Below, piece after piece: positions 11,209 through 21,455 of a stretch of 64,000 bases of DNA. Numbering within the stretch: position 1 is the first letter of the stretch; every line of letters begins with the position of its first letter. Made by a program: the position numbers and the translations under genes. Source of the DNA: a virus; IMG/VR virus record IMGVR_UViG_3300045974_000283, positions 1 through 64,000 of that record; one strand, written 5' to 3'. Below the pieces are notes generated by a model that had not been told where the DNA came from, did no database searches, and saw only the letters and a list, made by a program, of their open reading frames with translations.

Positions 11209-12339
11209 ATGAACGCACCTAGCACCCGCCCCGTCTCCGCAGAACTCGGCGTTCCCTTCATCAGCCTGCTCGACTCCATTGACTCGGTCAAGATGTTCGG
11301 GCAGAAGACCTCCTTCCTGCTCCGTGGTCAGCCCGGCATTGGCAAGACCGAGATGGCCCGTCACATGGCGAAGAGCCTCGGCATGGAATGCGTCCCCATC
11401 GACTGCGGAGCGGCCGACTTGGGCGAAACGGCGTTGCCTTACATCATCGATCACGTGTCGGGCCGGAAGACCTCGGCGTTCGCACCGAACGAAAAGTTCC
11501 GCACCGAGCTCGGCAAGCCTGTCGTCATCCTGCTCGACGAGATCGGCAAGGCGAATCCCATCACGCTGCCGATTTTCACGACCCTGATGCAGGAACGTCG
11601 CGTTGGCGACACGCCGCTGCCCGACGGCAACATCGTGATCGGCTGCACGAACTTCGACCAAGACGGTCTGGGTGATGTCCTGCCCGCACACGTTGACAAC
11701 CGCTGCATCACGCTCTACCTGAAGAACCCGACGGCGCGTGAGTGGAATATGTGGGCGGAATCGGCTGACATCGCTGCCGACATCCGCGGCTTTGCCGAGA
11801 CGTACCCGTCGATCTTCGATCTGTACCTGCTCGACGACGTCGCCAACCAGAACCGCTACATCTTCAATCCGCGCATCAACCGCACTCGTGGCTTTGTGTC
11901 GCCACGTTCGCTGGTCATGTGCGATGATATTGCGAAGGCATTCGTGGCGAAGCGCATCACCGCCGAACGCGCGAACTCTCTGTTCTTCGGTGCGATTGGT
12001 CCGGCCGCATCCAACGACCTGATGTCCTACATCGAACTTGGTCGTGGTCTTCCCACCAAGGAACTCATCCTGCAAGATCAGGATACAGCGCTCGACATGG
12101 TTCGCGTTGCCATGATGGCGCTGCCTACGCTCTGCGCTCAACTGCCCATGCAGATCATGACCGGCATCGAGCTGGACAAGATCGTCGAGTTCTTCCAAGC
12201 GTTGAACCAAGCTGAGGCAACGCAGATGTTCGTCGAGAGCGTCATGCGGCGCCCGAGTCTGGCAGTGCCACGAGCTCAGTCCAGACGCTATGCTGCGCTC
12301 ATCCGCGAGCTGGCGATCCTTTCGCAACCCATCCGCTAA
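11209..12339 (+). CDS. MoxR-family AAA+ ATPase
   Basis: 376 residues. Walker A GQPGIGKT (40-47), Walker B VVILLDE (105-111), and a sensor-1-like stretch (GNIVIGCTNFD) are all present. The order and spacing match MoxR/RavA-type AAA+ ATPases, which use ATP to remodel or activate partner proteins, usually one with a VWA domain. Such a partner is encoded right after it (12350-13594, 10-bp gap), which supports a two-protein chaperone-like machine in the host cytoplasm. The substrate is unknown. Confidence 0.85.
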   Translation: MNAPSTRPVSAELGVPFISLLDSIDSVKMFGQKTSFLLRGQPGIGKTEMARHMAKSLGMECVPIDCGAADLGETALPYIIDHVSGRKTSAFAPNEKFRTELGKPVVILLDEIGKANPITLPIFTTLMQERRVGDTPLPDGNIVIGCTNFDQDGLGDVLPAHVDNRCITLYLKNPTAREWNMWAESADIAADIRGFAETYPSIFDLYLLDDVANQNRYIFNPRINRTRGFVSPRSLVMCDDIAKAFVAKRITAERANSLFFGAIGPAASNDLMSYIELGRGLPTKELILQDQDTALDMVRVAMMALPTLCAQLPMQIMTGIELDKIVEFFQALNQAEATQMFVESVMRRPSLAVPRAQSRRYAALIRELAILSQPIR

Positions 12340-12349
12340 GGAACCCATC

Positions 12350-13594
12350 ATGGCAACCGACACCCGCACTGAGCGGGCGGTCCTTCTGATTCGGAAGGCT
12401 CGTCTCGAACTCGTCAGGGATTCCCTGACCCGTCCGATCAGCACGTTGCTGATCTCACTCGTCCACGATGTGACCCCGGATAACGGCATCGTGGACACGG
12501 CCCGGACCAATCTGATTCGCGTGACCTACAACGCGGCTTTCATCAACAAGGCTCACTTGGATAACGGAACGAACGGCCAGAAGGTCGTGAACTTCATTGT
12601 GGCCCACGAAGCCATCCACGCGGCTTTCTTGCACCCGATTGCCAAAGCCGGAGTCTCGGATCGTCCGCTGTGGCCTATGGCAGCGGACATCTTCGTGAAC
12701 AACTTCCTGCGCGAGATCGACTCTCAGCAGAAAGTCATCATGCAGCCGCCAACCTTTGGCGTTCAACCGATACGGTCGTTTAAGGGCTGGTCTGTTGTTC
12801 AGATTCTTCGCAAACTGGAAGAGATGTTCGGCGAGGGCAGCGGTCCAACGGACTTGCCACACGCTGATCACGAGTTCCTTGACAAGGACGCCCGAAAAGC
12901 GCAGGATGCTCAGAAGCGCGGGATGCAGAACGCCCTCGGCAACCTGAAGGCTCAACTGGCGCAGCGCGGCTCCTTGAGCATGGAGCAGAACCTGATGTTC
13001 GAGAACGGTCAGGCCACCGTGGACTGGAGAGGGGTCTTCAAGAACGCGGTCAACGACGCGGTGGGTCGTGGCATCGATCACGCCATCTGGACAAGACCGC
13101 ATCGTCGGATGTTCGCAGCCGGGGTCTTGCTGCCGCGAGCTGTTGGATCATCGCCGAAGCGGGTCGTGCTGATCGCTGATACTTCGGGTTCGTTCGTCCC
13201 GCGTCTGGACGACGTCTGTGCCAACTTGGCATCCCTGGGCGCTCATGTTCAAGTCAGCGAAGCCATCGTGCTATGGACAGAGACCAAGGTCACCTCGGTG
13301 CAGAAGCTGACCCCTGCTCAACTGTCGAACGCGGCGGCGCACCTGAAGCCTGTCGGCGGTGGCGGCACGGACATGCGAGCCGGGTTCTTCTGGTGTCAAG
13401 AGGAAGCCAAGAAAGGAATGGATATCGGGCTCATCGTTTGTCTGACCGACGGTGAAACCCCTTGGCCCCAAAAGCCCGTTCTGGGCAAAGACGGCAAGGC
13501 CATTCCGTCCGTGTTCCTTTGCTGGGATCGCACACCCAATCATCAGAAGACCTTCGGCAACCCGCCATTCGGCGTCACCATCGACTGTGAGTAA
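12350..13594 (+). CDS. Metallopeptidase-like/VWA-like (DUF2201-type) partner of the MoxR ATPase
   Basis: 414 residues; ATG 12350 has AAGGA upstream, and an in-frame ATG at 12290 inside the ATPase gene is rejected. The N-terminal part has a zincin-like HEAIH (86-90) with another His at 95 and a following AADIFVNNF, as in putative metallopeptidase domains of the DUF2201 type. The C-terminal half has a VWA-like MIDAS pattern: DTSGS (277-281) and later GGGTDM. In cellular systems such proteins pair with MoxR ATPases. Metal-dependent peptidase activity is possible but not proved by the motif. Confidence 0.8.
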   Translation: MATDTRTERAVLLIRKARLELVRDSLTRPISTLLISLVHDVTPDNGIVDTARTNLIRVTYNAAFINKAHLDNGTNGQKVVNFIVAHEAIHAAFLHPIAKAGVSDRPLWPMAADIFVNNFLREIDSQQKVIMQPPTFGVQPIRSFKGWSVVQILRKLEEMFGEGSGPTDLPHADHEFLDKDARKAQDAQKRGMQNALGNLKAQLAQRGSLSMEQNLMFENGQATVDWRGVFKNAVNDAVGRGIDHAIWTRPHRRMFAAGVLLPRAVGSSPKRVVLIADTSGSFVPRLDDVCANLASLGAHVQVSEAIVLWTETKVTSVQKLTPAQLSNAAAHLKPVGGGGTDMRAGFFWCQEEAKKGMDIGLIVCLTDGETPWPQKPVLGKDGKAIPSVFLCWDRTPNHQKTFGNPPFGVTIDCE

Positions 13595-16037: not shown

Positions 16038-19000
16038 ATGTCGAACCCTGACCAATCTCTAGGCGAGATACTCTCAGCCGCAGCCGAGATATTCTTGCCG
16101 GGCTCCACCACGACTGCGGTGACGGTGCAGGTCCCCACTCCGGCACAGAACAACCTCAAGCTCCAGACGGACCTGAACACCGGACGCCTGTCGCGCGCTG
16201 TCCCGCCTAAGCCTTGGCCGGGCGAAGAGCCGAAGACCCAAAACCGCAAGGCGCGGAAACTTGTCATGAAGACCTACGACGACGAAGAAACCAATGAGGA
16301 ATCCGAAGATGACGGAGAAAAGCTTCTTCGGAAGCTCCCAGCCAAGAGCAAATCGTACACTGAGTTGGAGGCAGAGAAGGCGGCAGCGGGCATCCAGAAG
16401 AACCCGAAAGTCGGTTTCAAGTCCTTCACCGATACCCTGGAAATGGCTCGGGAGCAGAGTCTTGTCAAAGCGCGGCCTTTGCCAGAATGGACGCAAGCGT
16501 TCAACGTGAACGCGCATCACGACGATGCGTTCTATCCGATTCTGGTGGACCTTCGCTCCGAGCGCACCCTGAGCGAGATCACCAAGAAGCTGGAAGAACA
16601 ACGGCTGAATGAGGAGAACCGGAACCGCCCGCGTCTGTTCCTGTCCGCCTTCAATGAGACTGGAGCTGCGCGCGAAGTTCACCTTGACGGGCTGCTCAAC
16701 GCGTCGAATCGACTCAGCTTCTTGACGGCTTCCGTCATGAAAGGGTTCCTCATGAGCCCAATCTCACGCGCAGAGCTCGACTACCTGTATGAGGAAGTCG
16801 TTCACAAGTTCGGGATGGATACGAGCTGGTTCTCCTCGACAAAAGACCCATCAGCTGTGAAGTGTTCGTTGGAAGAACGCCGCGTCGTTGAGGACCTGAT
16901 GGTGAACGTGCGATACGCACGAACGCGTTCGCGTGACCACCATCTCCACAGCATCTGCAACGATTTTGGATACAGCAACGGTGACCGTATCCGTCCTTTG
17001 CCGAAGACTTCGAAGTCGATTGAGACCCGCTCGAAGATGCTGGACTACTTCTACGAGTTCGACACGTATATCGAGATCCCGTCGTCGGTGATGTCTTGCG
17101 ATTACACCCCCGAATCGCTGTTCAATGGACGTGAAATCTGCCTCATGCCGCTCGTGTCGAACTTCAAGTCGCACTTGGCCGAAGACAAGTTGGCGACCTG
17201 CGGACCTCGTTACTCGCCTGAGTGGGAGAACCGCCGCCTCGATCAGGAAACCAGCTTTGTGGTCGTGTGGGTTCCCCGCGAGCAGTTCATCACTCCCCGC
17301 GAAGGTGCCAATCCTTTGACCGGGGTCTCGCAGTATCTGCGAGCGGGTATTGCCACGGGAGCGTTCTTACCGGAAAACGACCAGACGGCAAATCCCGTGT
17401 CGCGGGCTGACGCAGCCGCTTTCATCGAGAAAGTTTACTCCGAAAACGTGTCTTGGACCCGGCGTCTCAACTTCGAGCTGGAAGGCGTGAATGTCATCAA
17501 GGACATGGCCGACACCATGCTCCCCGAGGAGATTGGATTGTTGCAGGAGAATGTGACGACGAAACCGTTCCTGTTCGTGGACTGTGGCGCGCTGGACCCA
17601 ATCGTGCAATCCTTTGGGGCGGAGTTCTGCGCCCTGTTCAACTCGCCGGTGCGCGATCGCACTTTCCCGATGTACTTCAACCGCTCAACGACGAACGACG
17701 ATCATCGGAAGAAACGGAACGTGGTGTTCCCGATCCAGCCCCTCCGAGACTACGTCTACCGCAACGACGGCATGTTGAAAATTTCGTGGAAGACCTATCA
17801 AGACAACGATACGAGCAAAGGCTACACGGAAGTCGAGGATGAACTCGTCCGGAGCCTTGGCATCAAGAGTACGGATGAGGTCAAGACCGAGAATACTTTC
17901 AACCTTGACGCGTGGACGGCTTCCTTCGATGATCCGTGCTTCGACGTGGAGCACGTCGTGTTCATCGACGACCACCACCGTCAAGACCGACTCAGTGCAA
18001 TCCGGGCGGCGCTGGGATCGGTCGGTGTCACCTTCGACCCCGAAATCCTGTTGGACTTCCTTGTTCGCGTGTGCATCGGCAGCGCCCCGGACTTTCTGAT
18101 AGCGTTCACCGGGCGAAACGCTGGAGTGCAGAGCTTTGACTACTTGCTGAGGCACTACTTTGCAGGAAACCTCACGGCTCCAAAATCGGTTGGATCCTTC
18201 TTGCACATGATCGGTCGAAGGGGGTTAGCTGACAACCAAGACCGTGCTCGGGGTCTGGCGCTGATTGAAGCTGTCGAGGCCCTGCCGCGGTCCGCGGGTT
18301 TGGTGGATCCGACCGCCATCCTGTCTCCCGGTGAGTGTGCCGTCAATCCGCTGAACACCGTTGGTATGAGCCCCCGCAAGGGTAAGCCTGCTCCAGCGGC
18401 GAAGAAGAAACCACGGCCCCGCGACGATGAGGACGATGAAGAGGAAGAAGAGGAAGAATCCAAAAAGGATGACGATGAAGAGGACGAAAACTTCCAAGAG
18501 ACACCCGCAACGGAGCGCGTTCTCCGCGAAACCCGGAATGACGATCAGGATGACAAGGAAAAACTCCGTGCGGAATACCTGGACCTGCTCTCTTTGCTTT
18601 CTCAGCAAGACCAGACGTCTAAGCTCGGCTGTCTTGTCTCGGCCGAGCGCCGCAATCTCGTCGTGGCAGCAGGCATCGAGAACGTGAGTGAGTTTGCCTA
18701 CATGAAAACTGGCGACTCGATCTATTCAAATCTGTTCACTGCTCAAAACCTGGACTACGAACGGGTGTCAGTGATCAACCGGGCAACGGCGACCAAGCTG
18801 TCAGCGTCCAGCAAGAAAGCGCAGGAACGGCTTTTGGCGGGATCCAAGGATCAGCTGTCTACATCAGAAACCGTTTCCAAGCGGGTGAAAACCGCTGCCG
18901 AAACCCTGCGCGCCTTGGAGCAAGCGCGAGGTGAAGTGCGCAAGCAAATGGAACGGTATCAGGTTCACCTTGAGGACCTGCGCGAGGGCATCCTGATACG

Positions 19001-19985
19001 GTCGGGTCGCTCATTGCGAATCTTCACGCCGGAGAAACTTCGCAAGGAGCTTGAGGCGTTCCCGTTCATCCAGTCGCTTCGGGTGGTCGGTGACACCGTC
19101 TACTTGGTGATGCAGCCCGCAATCGTTACGCTGGAATCCGCTGAAGCATTCTGGGAAGTCAAGCGTGTCCAGGGATACGGCGAGTTCGTCGAAAAGTGGG
19201 CGGCGGCAGTTCAAAGCTCCTGGCCCTGCGGGAGTGCTGAAAAGGCGGCGATTCAGAAGGTGATCCTGAAAAGCGAACAGTTCAAGCATCTTGCCACCAA
19301 GTACGGCACTCGTCTCCCGGACGAGAAGATCCACATAGCGGACCGGGATGACGAGGTTCATCGGTTCCTTCAGCTGGCAATTCGCGACGCGGGTTTCCAG
19401 CGGTATGTACCGGCGATGAGCATGGGACTCACGGTGAAGGACGTTTATGAGAAGTCCGACACCACGAATCCGGTCAAGCTGTCCATGTTCGGAATAGGAG
19501 TGGGCATCCGGGACTTCGAGGAGAGTCATGCCGAGCAGCTGAACGAGCTCAAGCTGTCACCAGAAATCTACGGAGTTCTTGAACCTCTATACACGAAGTG
19601 GCGAAACACCCTTCAACCCAAGGTCACCGGATCATCAAGCAAGAAGATGGACGCCCTGGAAAGTTGGAAAGAGGAATACCAGAAACTGAAAAGCACTCCG
19701 TACGGTTCCATCATTTCAACCGAGCTGACGACGGCAGGCTTCGACAGGTTCGTTCAGGGCAAGCCGCTCACGCCTCACCTCAAGATCAGTGGCAACTCCT
19801 GCTGGTCCTCTTTCAAGGACGCCATCAATCTGTCGCTGCGAAAACGTCGTCATCTGGAAGCCATGCTTTTGTGCCGGGACTTCTTCACCTCTGCCACTGA
19901 TAACGTGACGGGTATCCCGGGCTTGCTGGAAATGCCCACAAAGGAACCGTCAATCAAGTTCGTCTCAAACCGCGTCAGCTTCTAA
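16038..19985 (+). CDS. Very large unknown protein (1315 aa)
   Basis: The largest gene in the window. It has a charged N-terminal region (DDEETNEESEDDGEK), a large globular-looking part (about 140-770), a Lys/Pro then Asp/Glu linker (about 780-830, DDEDDEEEEEEESKKDDDEE), a helical region (about 890-990, RALEQARGEVRKQMERYQ) and a C-terminal globular part. No Walker motif, HExxH, JAB or RING-like motif was found by eye. Only 9 bp separate it from the E1-like gene, so it may be a partner or substrate of that system. Confidence 0.65.
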   Translation: MSNPDQSLGEILSAAAEIFLPGSTTTAVTVQVPTPAQNNLKLQTDLNTGRLSRAVPPKPWPGEEPKTQNRKARKLVMKTYDDEETNEESEDDGEKLLRKLPAKSKSYTELEAEKAAAGIQKNPKVGFKSFTDTLEMAREQSLVKARPLPEWTQAFNVNAHHDDAFYPILVDLRSERTLSEITKKLEEQRLNEENRNRPRLFLSAFNETGAAREVHLDGLLNASNRLSFLTASVMKGFLMSPISRAELDYLYEEVVHKFGMDTSWFSSTKDPSAVKCSLEERRVVEDLMVNVRYARTRSRDHHLHSICNDFGYSNGDRIRPLPKTSKSIETRSKMLDYFYEFDTYIEIPSSVMSCDYTPESLFNGREICLMPLVSNFKSHLAEDKLATCGPRYSPEWENRRLDQETSFVVVWVPREQFITPREGANPLTGVSQYLRAGIATGAFLPENDQTANPVSRADAAAFIEKVYSENVSWTRRLNFELEGVNVIKDMADTMLPEEIGLLQENVTTKPFLFVDCGALDPIVQSFGAEFCALFNSPVRDRTFPMYFNRSTTNDDHRKKRNVVFPIQPLRDYVYRNDGMLKISWKTYQDNDTSKGYTEVEDELVRSLGIKSTDEVKTENTFNLDAWTASFDDPCFDVEHVVFIDDHHRQDRLSAIRAALGSVGVTFDPEILLDFLVRVCIGSAPDFLIAFTGRNAGVQSFDYLLRHYFAGNLTAPKSVGSFLHMIGRRGLADNQDRARGLALIEAVEALPRSAGLVDPTAILSPGECAVNPLNTVGMSPRKGKPAPAAKKKPRPRDDEDDEEEEEEESKKDDDEEDENFQETPATERVLRETRNDDQDDKEKLRAEYLDLLSLLSQQDQTSKLGCLVSAERRNLVVAAGIENVSEFAYMKTGDSIYSNLFTAQNLDYERVSVINRATATKLSASSKKAQERLLAGSKDQLSTSETVSKRVKTAAETLRALEQARGEVRKQMERYQVHLEDLREGILIRSGRSLRIFTPEKLRKELEAFPFIQSLRVVGDTVYLVMQPAIVTLESAEAFWEVKRVQGYGEFVEKWAAAVQSSWPCGSAEKAAIQKVILKSEQFKHLATKYGTRLPDEKIHIADRDDEVHRFLQLAIRDAGFQRYVPAMSMGLTVKDVYEKSDTTNPVKLSMFGIGVGIRDFEESHAEQLNELKLSPEIYGVLEPLYTKWRNTLQPKVTGSSSKKMDALESWKEEYQKLKSTPYGSIISTELTTAGFDRFVQGKPLTPHLKISGNSCWSSFKDAINLSLRKRRHLEAMLLCRDFFTSATDNVTGIPGLLEMPTKEPSIKFVSNRVSF

Positions 19986-19994
19986 GGAACCAAC

Positions 19995-20702
19995 ATGGAC
20001 CTCACTCGTCACCGCTATGTTTTCGATCCCGCTCAGTTCAACGACAGGCAGCTCACTGTCGCGGTCATCGGGGCGGGCGCCCTCGGCTCTCAGGTGGCAC
20101 TGCACCTGAGCAAGCTCGGCCTCGACCGCGTCTATGTCATCGACGACGATCAAGTCGAGGGTCACAACCTACCGAATCAGCTGACCTACGGGGAAGACGA
20201 CATCGGCAAGTACAAAGCCGTGGCTTTGGCAAATCGCCTGAATCTACTGCGAGGCGGTTCCGACTTCGGTGCGGATGTCGTTTGGCCTGTCGTGCGTCGT
20301 GCTCCGATCGGATACGTGGCGGAAGCCGCCGCTGTCTTCGTCTGCGTGGACAGCATGAAGGCGCGGAAGGAAATCGCGGATTTCGCGTTCACCAACTGCC
20401 CACCTAGTACCCTGTTAATAGATGGTAGGATCGGTGCCTATACCGGTTCTGCCCTGATATCACGTGTCGGGCTGGAAAACGAAGTCGAGGGCTACAGGCA
20501 AACCCTGTACTCCGATTCCGATGTCCAGCCCGACACGGGTAGCTGTGGGGAGACCCTCAGCATCGGAGCCACTGCGAGCATCATCGCGGCGCAGATGGTC
20601 TGGCTGTTCATGCAGCGTTTCTCAACCGCCGAAATCCCTCGGCATGTCAACGAAGTGATCTTTTCCGTCAACCCCTGGAGCCTCATGGCTCGTTCTTTCT
20701 GA
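19995..20702 (+). CDS. E1-like activating enzyme (ThiF/MoeB/UBA family)
   Basis: 235 residues. Rossmann nucleotide-binding loop VIGAGALGS (24-32), Asp50-52 at the strand end, a HNLPNQL stretch (58-63), GKYK with the ATP-contacting Lys (71-74) and VDS (118-120) reproduce the order of motifs in ThiF/MoeB/E1 adenylating enzymes. Cys184 in TGSCGET aligns by position with the SCAEAG region of MoeB, a candidate thioester cysteine. Such enzymes adenylate the C-terminal Gly of a beta-grasp protein; one ending in Gly-Gly is encoded 9 bp downstream. I see no CxxC zinc site. Confidence 0.85.
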   Translation: MDLTRHRYVFDPAQFNDRQLTVAVIGAGALGSQVALHLSKLGLDRVYVIDDDQVEGHNLPNQLTYGEDDIGKYKAVALANRLNLLRGGSDFGADVVWPVVRRAPIGYVAEAAAVFVCVDSMKARKEIADFAFTNCPPSTLLIDGRIGAYTGSALISRVGLENEVEGYRQTLYSDSDVQPDTGSCGETLSIGATASIIAAQMVWLFMQRFSTAEIPRHVNEVIFSVNPWSLMARSF

Positions 20703-20711
20703 AAGCAAACC

Positions 20712-21455
20712 ATGTCCAAAATCAACGTCACGTTCCGTTCCGCCCTCGGCTCTGTCTTCACCGCTGCGGTGGATGCGGGCACCTCCCTCCGTCAGGCTTT
20801 CAATCAGGCTGTCGGCAAGACCTACGGTGCCATCGACCACCAAGAAATCACGGCTGAAGGCGCGAAGGTCAGCAAGGAGAAGAAGCTGAGCGCCGACCTC
20901 GAAGTCGCCGTCGTCCTGAAGGGCGAAACGGCCCCTGTCGCCAGCTCGGCGACTCCGGCGAACACGGAAACCGCAAGCGATTCCGTCGCTGAAAGCACCA
21001 CGACCACGGAGACCTCCAATGCCAACACCGCAGACACCGCACAAAGCGCCACCGAAGGCACCGCCACCGATGCCGTCCAAGGATCAGCCGAACAGGCCGC
21101 AGAAGGCACCACCGAAACCGCGAACGCTCAACCGGCCGAGGGCGTGAAGGCCGAGACCGAGACGGCTTCTGTCGCCTCGGCTTCCGGCATCGAGGCGGTT
21201 CCAGTCGGCACGGCTCCGGTTGTCGAGAAGGTCAGCGTGACCTTCAAGGGCATGGGCTCCGGCCGTGGTTCGCCCGACATCATCGTGCAGCGCAACAAGG
21301 GCACGCCGCTGTCTGAGTTCCTGACTGAGTCTTCGCTCGTGTCTGTGTCCAAGGGCAAGCGCTTCTTCGACCAGACCAACAAGTCGATCCCGGTCGGCAT
21401 GTTGATCCAGGCGAACATGGCGCTGTCGGCACGGGCCGCGTCATCCGGCGGCTGA
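20712..21455 (+). CDS. Double beta-grasp (ubiquitin-like) protein ending in Gly-Gly
   Basis: 247 residues. Two similar small domains (about 1-70, KINVTFRSALG...VAVVLKG, and about 172-245, EKVSVTFKGMG...) are joined by a Thr/Ala/Glu-rich linker of about 100 residues. Both have the strand-helix-strand pattern of a ubiquitin/ThiS-like beta-grasp. The protein ends ...ARAASSGG with no extra residues, the mature form of a conjugatable or sulphur-carrier modifier. Pairing with the adjacent E1-like gene strongly suggests that it is adenylated at this tail. A stem-loop follows the stop. Fold assignment is by pattern only. Confidence 0.7.
   Translation: MSKINVTFRSALGSVFTAAVDAGTSLRQAFNQAVGKTYGAIDHQEITAEGAKVSKEKKLSADLEVAVVLKGETAPVASSATPANTETASDSVAESTTTTETSNANTADTAQSATEGTATDAVQGSAEQAAEGTTETANAQPAEGVKAETETASVASASGIEAVPVGTAPVVEKVSVTFKGMGSGRGSPDIIVQRNKGTPLSEFLTESSLVSVSKGKRFFDQTNKSIPVGMLIQANMALSARAASSGG

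Follow-up and report, generated by a model that had tools for sequence, protein, structure and literature searches.

Organization of the Locus

As shown in Table 1, three genes follow one another on the plus strand of the window, i.e., bases 1-64000 of the 177,837-base IMG/VR virus record IMGVR_UViG_3300045974_000283, a record that is possibly incomplete. The genes (16038-19985, 19995-20702, and 20712-21455) are separated by 9-bp gaps and encode, in this order, a 1315-aa protein with an E2-like region, an E1/ThiF-like enzyme, and a ubiquitin-like (Ubl) protein; the positions and 9-bp spacing that an earlier note on this DNA had given for the E1 gene and the reading frame after it were both confirmed. 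The three genes probably form one operon. To the right are genes for a tail sheath, a baseplate, and a tape measure, and to the left is an NAD-dependent DNA ligase gene; the tail genes therefore mark the window phage as a contractile-tailed phage. Elsewhere in the window (11209-13594), an AAA_5 ATPase adjoins a DUF2201 protein with metallopeptidase-like and VWA-like parts, the two making up a pair of the MoxR/VWA type.

Table 1. Features of the locus, with their positions in the window and the basis of each assignment.
Feature	Position	Strand	Basis
1315-aa protein: large N-terminal region, acidic linker, coiled coil, C-terminal divergent E2 (UBC)-like region	16038-19985	+	First gene of the putative operon, directly before E1; phage E2 profile
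Probable E2 core, residues ~1002-1290, split by two insertions; catalytic-Cys motif PHLKISGNSCWSSF	19041-19907	+	Colinear profile and phmmer segments
Codon of Cys1255, predicted E2 active-site cysteine	19800-19802	+	Aligns with the nearly invariant phage E2 Cys
E1/ThiF-like Ubl-activating enzyme, 235 aa	19995-20702	+	PF00899, E=1.1e-24; profile matches Uba1/ThiF structures; ATP and Mg residues conserved
Codon of E1 Cys184, candidate thioester cysteine	20544-20546	+	Kept in 54/54 aligned phage E1s
Ubl protein, 247 aa: N-terminal Ubl, A/T/E-rich linker, C-terminal domain with free Gly-Gly end	20712-21455	+	Profile, AlphaFold, Foldseek, sequence
Ubl domain 1, residues 1-72, beta-grasp	20712-20927	+	AlphaFold, Foldseek, phage Ubl profile
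Domain 2, residues about 169-247, candidate conjugatable Ubl ending ANMALSARAASSGG	21216-21452	+	Last-strand alignment with related phages
Gly246-Gly247, C-terminal, exposed without processing	21447-21452	+	Sequence; bare Gly in all four JAB-less systems

The E1/ThiF-like Enzyme

Among Pfam and NCBIfam families, ThiF is the closest to the window E1, and the match bears out the description of this protein in the earlier note as E1/MoeB/ThiF-like. All the motifs named there are present, i.e., GAGALG (residues 26-31), HNLPNQ (residues 57-62), GKYK, and Cys184 within TGSCGET. In an alignment of 56 related E1s, Asp50, Asp52, Asn58, Lys74, and Asp119 are invariant (56/56 each), four of them (Asp50, Asn58, Lys74, and Asp119) having been checked as ATP/Mg residues; Arg5 is found in 52 of 53 sequences, and the glycine loop is likewise kept. 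In place of the arginine in the NLxRQ motif that E1 enzymes usually carry, the window E1 has Asn61: where Uba1 reads NLNRQ in its alignment with the phage E1 profile, the window reads HNLPNQ (20163-20180), and the phage relatives have Arg at this position in 1/56 and Asn in 37/56. This replacement counts against an active conjugation cascade, and it is the same in most phage relatives. MccB and PaaA are also among the structural matches of the phage E1 profile. Single-sequence scans for close relatives found none for the E1, for Ubl domain 2, or for the 1315-aa protein.

The Ubl Protein

Two beta-grasp-like domains had been claimed for the second protein, of which the first is supported by AlphaFold, Foldseek, and profile searches, while the second is unconfirmed. 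Domain 1 is modeled with a pLDDT of 91-97 over most residues and a strand-strand-helix-strand order, and its best PDB matches in Foldseek are SUMO and ubiquitin (E=1.6e-4 to 2e-4, probability 1.00). It is also the sole significant match in the window to a profile built from the Ubls of other phages (E=1.3e-7), a value that is mildly favoured because the same reading frame entered the profile during iteration (E=1.7e-6) from the seeds of other phages; the AlphaFold and Foldseek support is independent of this profile. With the window sequence included, the profile matches archaeal SAMP2 (E=4e-7), the closest solved Ubl, as well as MoaD and ThiS.

A low-complexity linker of ~95 residues separates the two domains. 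Domain 2 has a pLDDT of 50-76, the rows of the input alignment having covered domain 1 only, and its score against the Ubl profile was not above that of shuffled sequences and was not significant. Over its last strand and ...SGG end, however, the domain can be aligned with ENLKLTAIAKASGG of Xanthomonas phage PhiXhv-12 (L002) and TDLTITATRNASGG of L005, a 238-kb relative. The bare C-terminal Gly-Gly, as the earlier note had it, is real and recurs in the relatives that lack a JAB gene, though one of them (L024) ends in His-Gly. This end is, judging from the sequence, a candidate substrate for the E1.

Related Phage Cassettes

Scans of IMG/VR with the E1 alignment collected 81 distinct viral contigs, some of them cut, and since the collection is E1-seeded, its counts are not unbiased frequencies; within it, a complete Ubl, E1, E2, and JAB cassette is present in 52 of the 81. 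The gene order is Ubl-E2-E1 in PhiXhv-12 and Erwinia phage Ep032 (L003), both deposited as complete genomes (227 kb), and E2-E1-Ubl in L005; L024 has E2-E1 plus a Gly-terminated Ubl-like reading frame upstream. The phage JAB profile matches Rpn11 (E=3e-12). In some phages the Ubl is, in the manner of polyubiquitin, a string of tandem repeats with ...KGN at the junctions. The clearest polyubiquitin-like precursor, at L039:9734-10402, has three near-identical tandem Ubl repeats, each ending PIKGN, and adjoins E1 and JAB genes.

Several variations on the cassette were seen. Cys-rich RING- or treble-clef-like tails occur on the E2-like proteins at L017:6786-7916, L019:6126-7625, L025:6620-7894, L007:7240-8985, and L002:6310-8988, and these tails are possibly built-in E3 modules. 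L031, L059, and L061 carry a second Ubl-E2-JAB set about 3 kb past the first cassette in the same phage, and two E2-like genes are adjacent in L036, L056, L060, L069, and L072. In cultured Flavobacterium phages of the FpV4 type, Ubl-like, E2-like, JAB, and E1 genes stand in a row (L004:1640-5651), annotated merely as hypothetical or thiamine biosynthesis proteins; the E2 and Ubl candidates gave no significant alignment to the main families and were identified by motif and gene order only. Related cassettes are also found in uncultured Myxococcales genomes (L095-L107), several in each, with E1 and JAB and many with E2 and Ubl; the two that were inspected lie near restriction-modification or nuclease genes, which suggests defence islands.

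The E2-like Region of the 1315-aa Protein

A profile of nine phage E2-like proteins, built without the window sequence, has E2 enzymes among its PDB matches, human UBE2A included (E=2e-4), and a 31-sequence profile matches UBE2A/B (E=1e-3). The alignment with PDB entries spans the HPN..C motif through the next helix and places the phage E2 cysteine on the active-site cysteine of UBE2A. These matches were obtained by profiles only; phmmer with one phage E2 against the PDB returned nothing relevant. In L002, L003, L005, and L024, the gene immediately before E1 carries a motif such as IHPH....CLG, and the gene of the 1315-aa protein occupies the same place in the window.

Of all reading frames in the window, that of the 1315-aa protein scores highest against the phage E2 profile (9.6 bits, E=0.018), a score that none of 2000 shuffles reached (maximum 5.9). 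The matches are colinear, residues 1004-1038 and 1242-1286 aligning with model positions 5-40 and 74-118; similarly, phmmer with the L005 E2 gives two colinear segments (E=0.0018), and hhalign of the E2-like segment gives P=8.5e-4. The cysteine and its PHL..G context are retained, with CWSS in place of the CLGx of the relatives. The weak sequence signal, the two insertions, and CWSS count against the E2 reading. No family library gave a match to the 1315-aa protein, and a profile from the four E2s of the JAB-less lineage did no better than a few shuffles. The AlphaFold model of the region, with a mean pLDDT of 60 and nothing useful among its Foldseek matches, is too poor to contribute, so the assignment is drawn from synteny, motif, and profile, by which an E2-like core in the 1315-aa protein is very probable. 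The earlier note had regarded an E2 gene as lacking, which is very probably wrong, as the gene directly upstream of E1 is E2-like in profile, motif, and gene order.

Absence of JAB and the Exposed Glycine End

The lack of JAB, by contrast, had been rightly noted. Neither Pfam nor the phage JAB profile finds a JAB in the 177.8-kb window record, which may be incomplete, and none was found in the 1315-aa protein. Five whole records (window, L002, L003, L005, and L024) likewise gave none, while four JAB-bearing controls match at E of about 1e-47 or better. This absence goes together with the exposed Gly-Gly, as JAB-bearing relatives nearly all extend past the glycine. The Ubl ends in a bare Gly in 4/4 distinct systems of the JAB-less lineage (SGG, SGG, SGG, and HG), whereas in 32 of 36 JAB-bearing loci the Gly is followed by further residues, usually one Asn (...KGN), and 4/36 are Gly-terminal. 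Among these four, L054 (KGNG) and L061 (KGN plus tail) retain an internal KGN, L025 can be read either way, and L019 genuinely departs from the pattern. The difference has a Fisher P of 8e-4, a statistic that ignores kinship, and a single lineage probably accounts for the JAB-less loci.

A single change on the E1 tree suffices to explain where JAB is present, and the JAB-less group is nested among JAB-bearing loci with weak clade support (62); L013, whose very long branch fell within the JAB-less clade of the first tree, was excluded from the second. The pattern therefore represents one evolutionary event fitting the mechanism and not four independent ones. The window, the Xanthomonas and Erwinia jumbo phages, L005, and L024 are regarded as a small derived group in which JAB was lost.

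Comparison with Known Systems

Bacterial E1/E2/JAB/Ubl operons were described by Iyer et al. 2006 (PMC1779556). In the parts of that paper considered here, operon types 6a-6e always have JAB fused to E1 or encoded beside it, type 6d consists of Ubl, JAB, E1, E2, and a helical protein, and the only phage case given is TAPI, a Ubl of tail assembly that is paired with a JAB. The phage cassettes resemble type 6d in having separate, adjacent E1, E2-like, JAB, and Ubl genes and a conserved terminal Gly of the Ubl, but differ from it in being phage-borne, in lacking JAB in the window lineage, and in showing no conserved helical partner; furthermore, phage E2s usually retain HPH..C, and no Prok-E2 Pfam family matched them.

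The anti-phage Bil system (BilABCD) comprises the same four functions, E1, E2, JAB, and Ubl, and its BilA, a protein with two Ubl domains, undergoes trimming by BilC, the JAB of the system (PMC11354881). Unlike Bil, the window system is encoded by a phage rather than its host, lacks JAB, and has a free Gly-Gly and an E2 buried in a 1315-aa protein, and its E1 has only 235 aa, with neither an inactive half nor a separate Cys domain. In type II CBASS Cap2/Cap3 and BubCD, E1-E2 transfer to a terminal Gly is accompanied by a JAB partner (PMC10097602). The phage cassettes share the JAB partner and, by prediction, the E1-E2 chemistry, but unlike these systems they have a separate E1 gene and a real Ubl as the tag instead of a cGAS-like enzyme. 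The match of the PADLOC E1-E2 models to the window is limited to the E1 core, and the 6A-MBL, CBASS, Bil, and Bub models likewise match the E1 core alone, far below the cut-off where one exists.

The PRTRC plasmid system, which the earlier note had raised for comparison, also pairs a ThiF-family E1 with a Ubl. Membership in it was rejected, as every PRTRC model tested misses: the PRTRC ThiF model scores 50.7 bits against a curated cut-off of 144.75, the PRTRC Ubl and E2 Pfam families gave no match, and no PRTRC model matched the neighbours tested. The archaeal SAMP2/JAMM1/UbaA system is similar in its small ThiF-type E1 and in SAMP2 being the closest solved Ubl, but the window has an E2-like gene and no JAMM. 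The terms ThiF, JAB, Ub-like, E1-like, and E2-like are absent from a 2021 overview that compares 224 jumbo phages (PMC7824862), and the term ubiquitin is absent from a 2026 jumbo-phage review (PMC13282480). The literature searched held no description of phage-encoded Ubl+E1+E2(+JAB) cassettes; their novelty is provisional, because subscription papers and preprints were outside that search.

Proposed Mechanism and Alternative Explanations

The earlier note had proposed a phage protein-modification or sulphur-carrier system. The pairing of E1 and Ubl in dozens of phage cassettes favours modification, and a phage E1-E2-Ubl protein-conjugation cascade is the best, and probably the correct, reading of the window genes. 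The E1 would adenylate the Ubl, a double-domain protein, at its free C-terminal Gly-Gly; Cys184 of the E1 would probably accept the Ubl and hand it over to Cys1255 of the divergent E2 core, while the extra region of the 1315-aa protein (about 990 residues) probably selects substrates or serves as an E3. In infection, the Ubl would be attached to amino groups of host or phage proteins. In the ancestral phage cassettes, the JAB (Rpn11-like) protease would trim the Ubl precursor and may also strip tags; the precursor of JAB-bearing cassettes needs such trimming before use by E1, as BilC does for BilA (PMC11354881). In the window lineage, JAB would have been lost and the mature Gly-Gly end encoded directly in the Ubl gene. 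Because only E1, E2, and the tag remain without JAB, tagging would be constitutive and, barring a host protease, probably irreversible; a deconjugase could come from the host, which counts against irreversible tagging.

A sulphur carrier would use the same adenylated Ubl end to form a thiocarboxylate, providing sulphur for phage tRNA, nucleotide, or cofactor modification in the manner of ThiS, MoaD, or Urm1. The proximity of the window E1 to ThiF and the MoaD and ThiS matches of the Ubl profile agree with this role, but the adjoining genes searched gave no hit to a domain of the sulphurtransferase, rhodanese, SirA, or thiolase kinds, genes for E2-like and Rpn11-like JAB proteins accompany the related E1s, and several related Ubls are tandem repeats in polyubiquitin fashion, so a sulphur carrier is improbable and much less likely than modification. 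The coupling to E2-like and JAB partners, together with a tag that is a full beta-grasp rather than a short peptide, also opposes non-conjugating E1 chemistry, in which a nucleotide or small molecule would be put on the Gly-Gly end to yield an inhibitor; despite the MccB and PaaA structural matches, such an MccB-like use is very unlikely.

Conjugation might also proceed independently of E2, the E1 alone ligating the Ubl in the way of archaeal SAMPylation; the 1315-aa protein, its E2-like part an inactive remnant, would then serve only as substrate, scaffold, or adaptor. The weak, insertion-split E2 match and the nearness of the Ubl profile to SAMP2 speak for this arrangement; the cysteine and PHL..G context retained in the window E2 core and the E2 adjoining E1 in all three related JAB-less phages speak against it, and it is considered unlikely.

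Biological Significance

The bacterial Ubl-conjugation systems known so far have been studied mostly as anti-phage defences. It appears moderately likely that tailed phages own a full Ubl-tagging pathway of E1, E2, JAB, and Ubl, sometimes with a polyubiquitin-like precursor or a RING-like E2 zinc domain, and that one jumbo-phage lineage made of it a one-way device, with JAB dropped and Gly-Gly pre-matured, marking host or phage proteins in infection; host takeover or counter-defence as the role of the cassette is a guess. If the widespread phage-borne version is true, phages would also wield ubiquitin-like tagging, a testable counterpart to Bil and CBASS. Such phage cassettes would also be fresh material on the origins of the ubiquitin system, and the JAB-less lineage offers a natural experiment on precursor processing because the Ubl tail and the protease seem to have been lost together.
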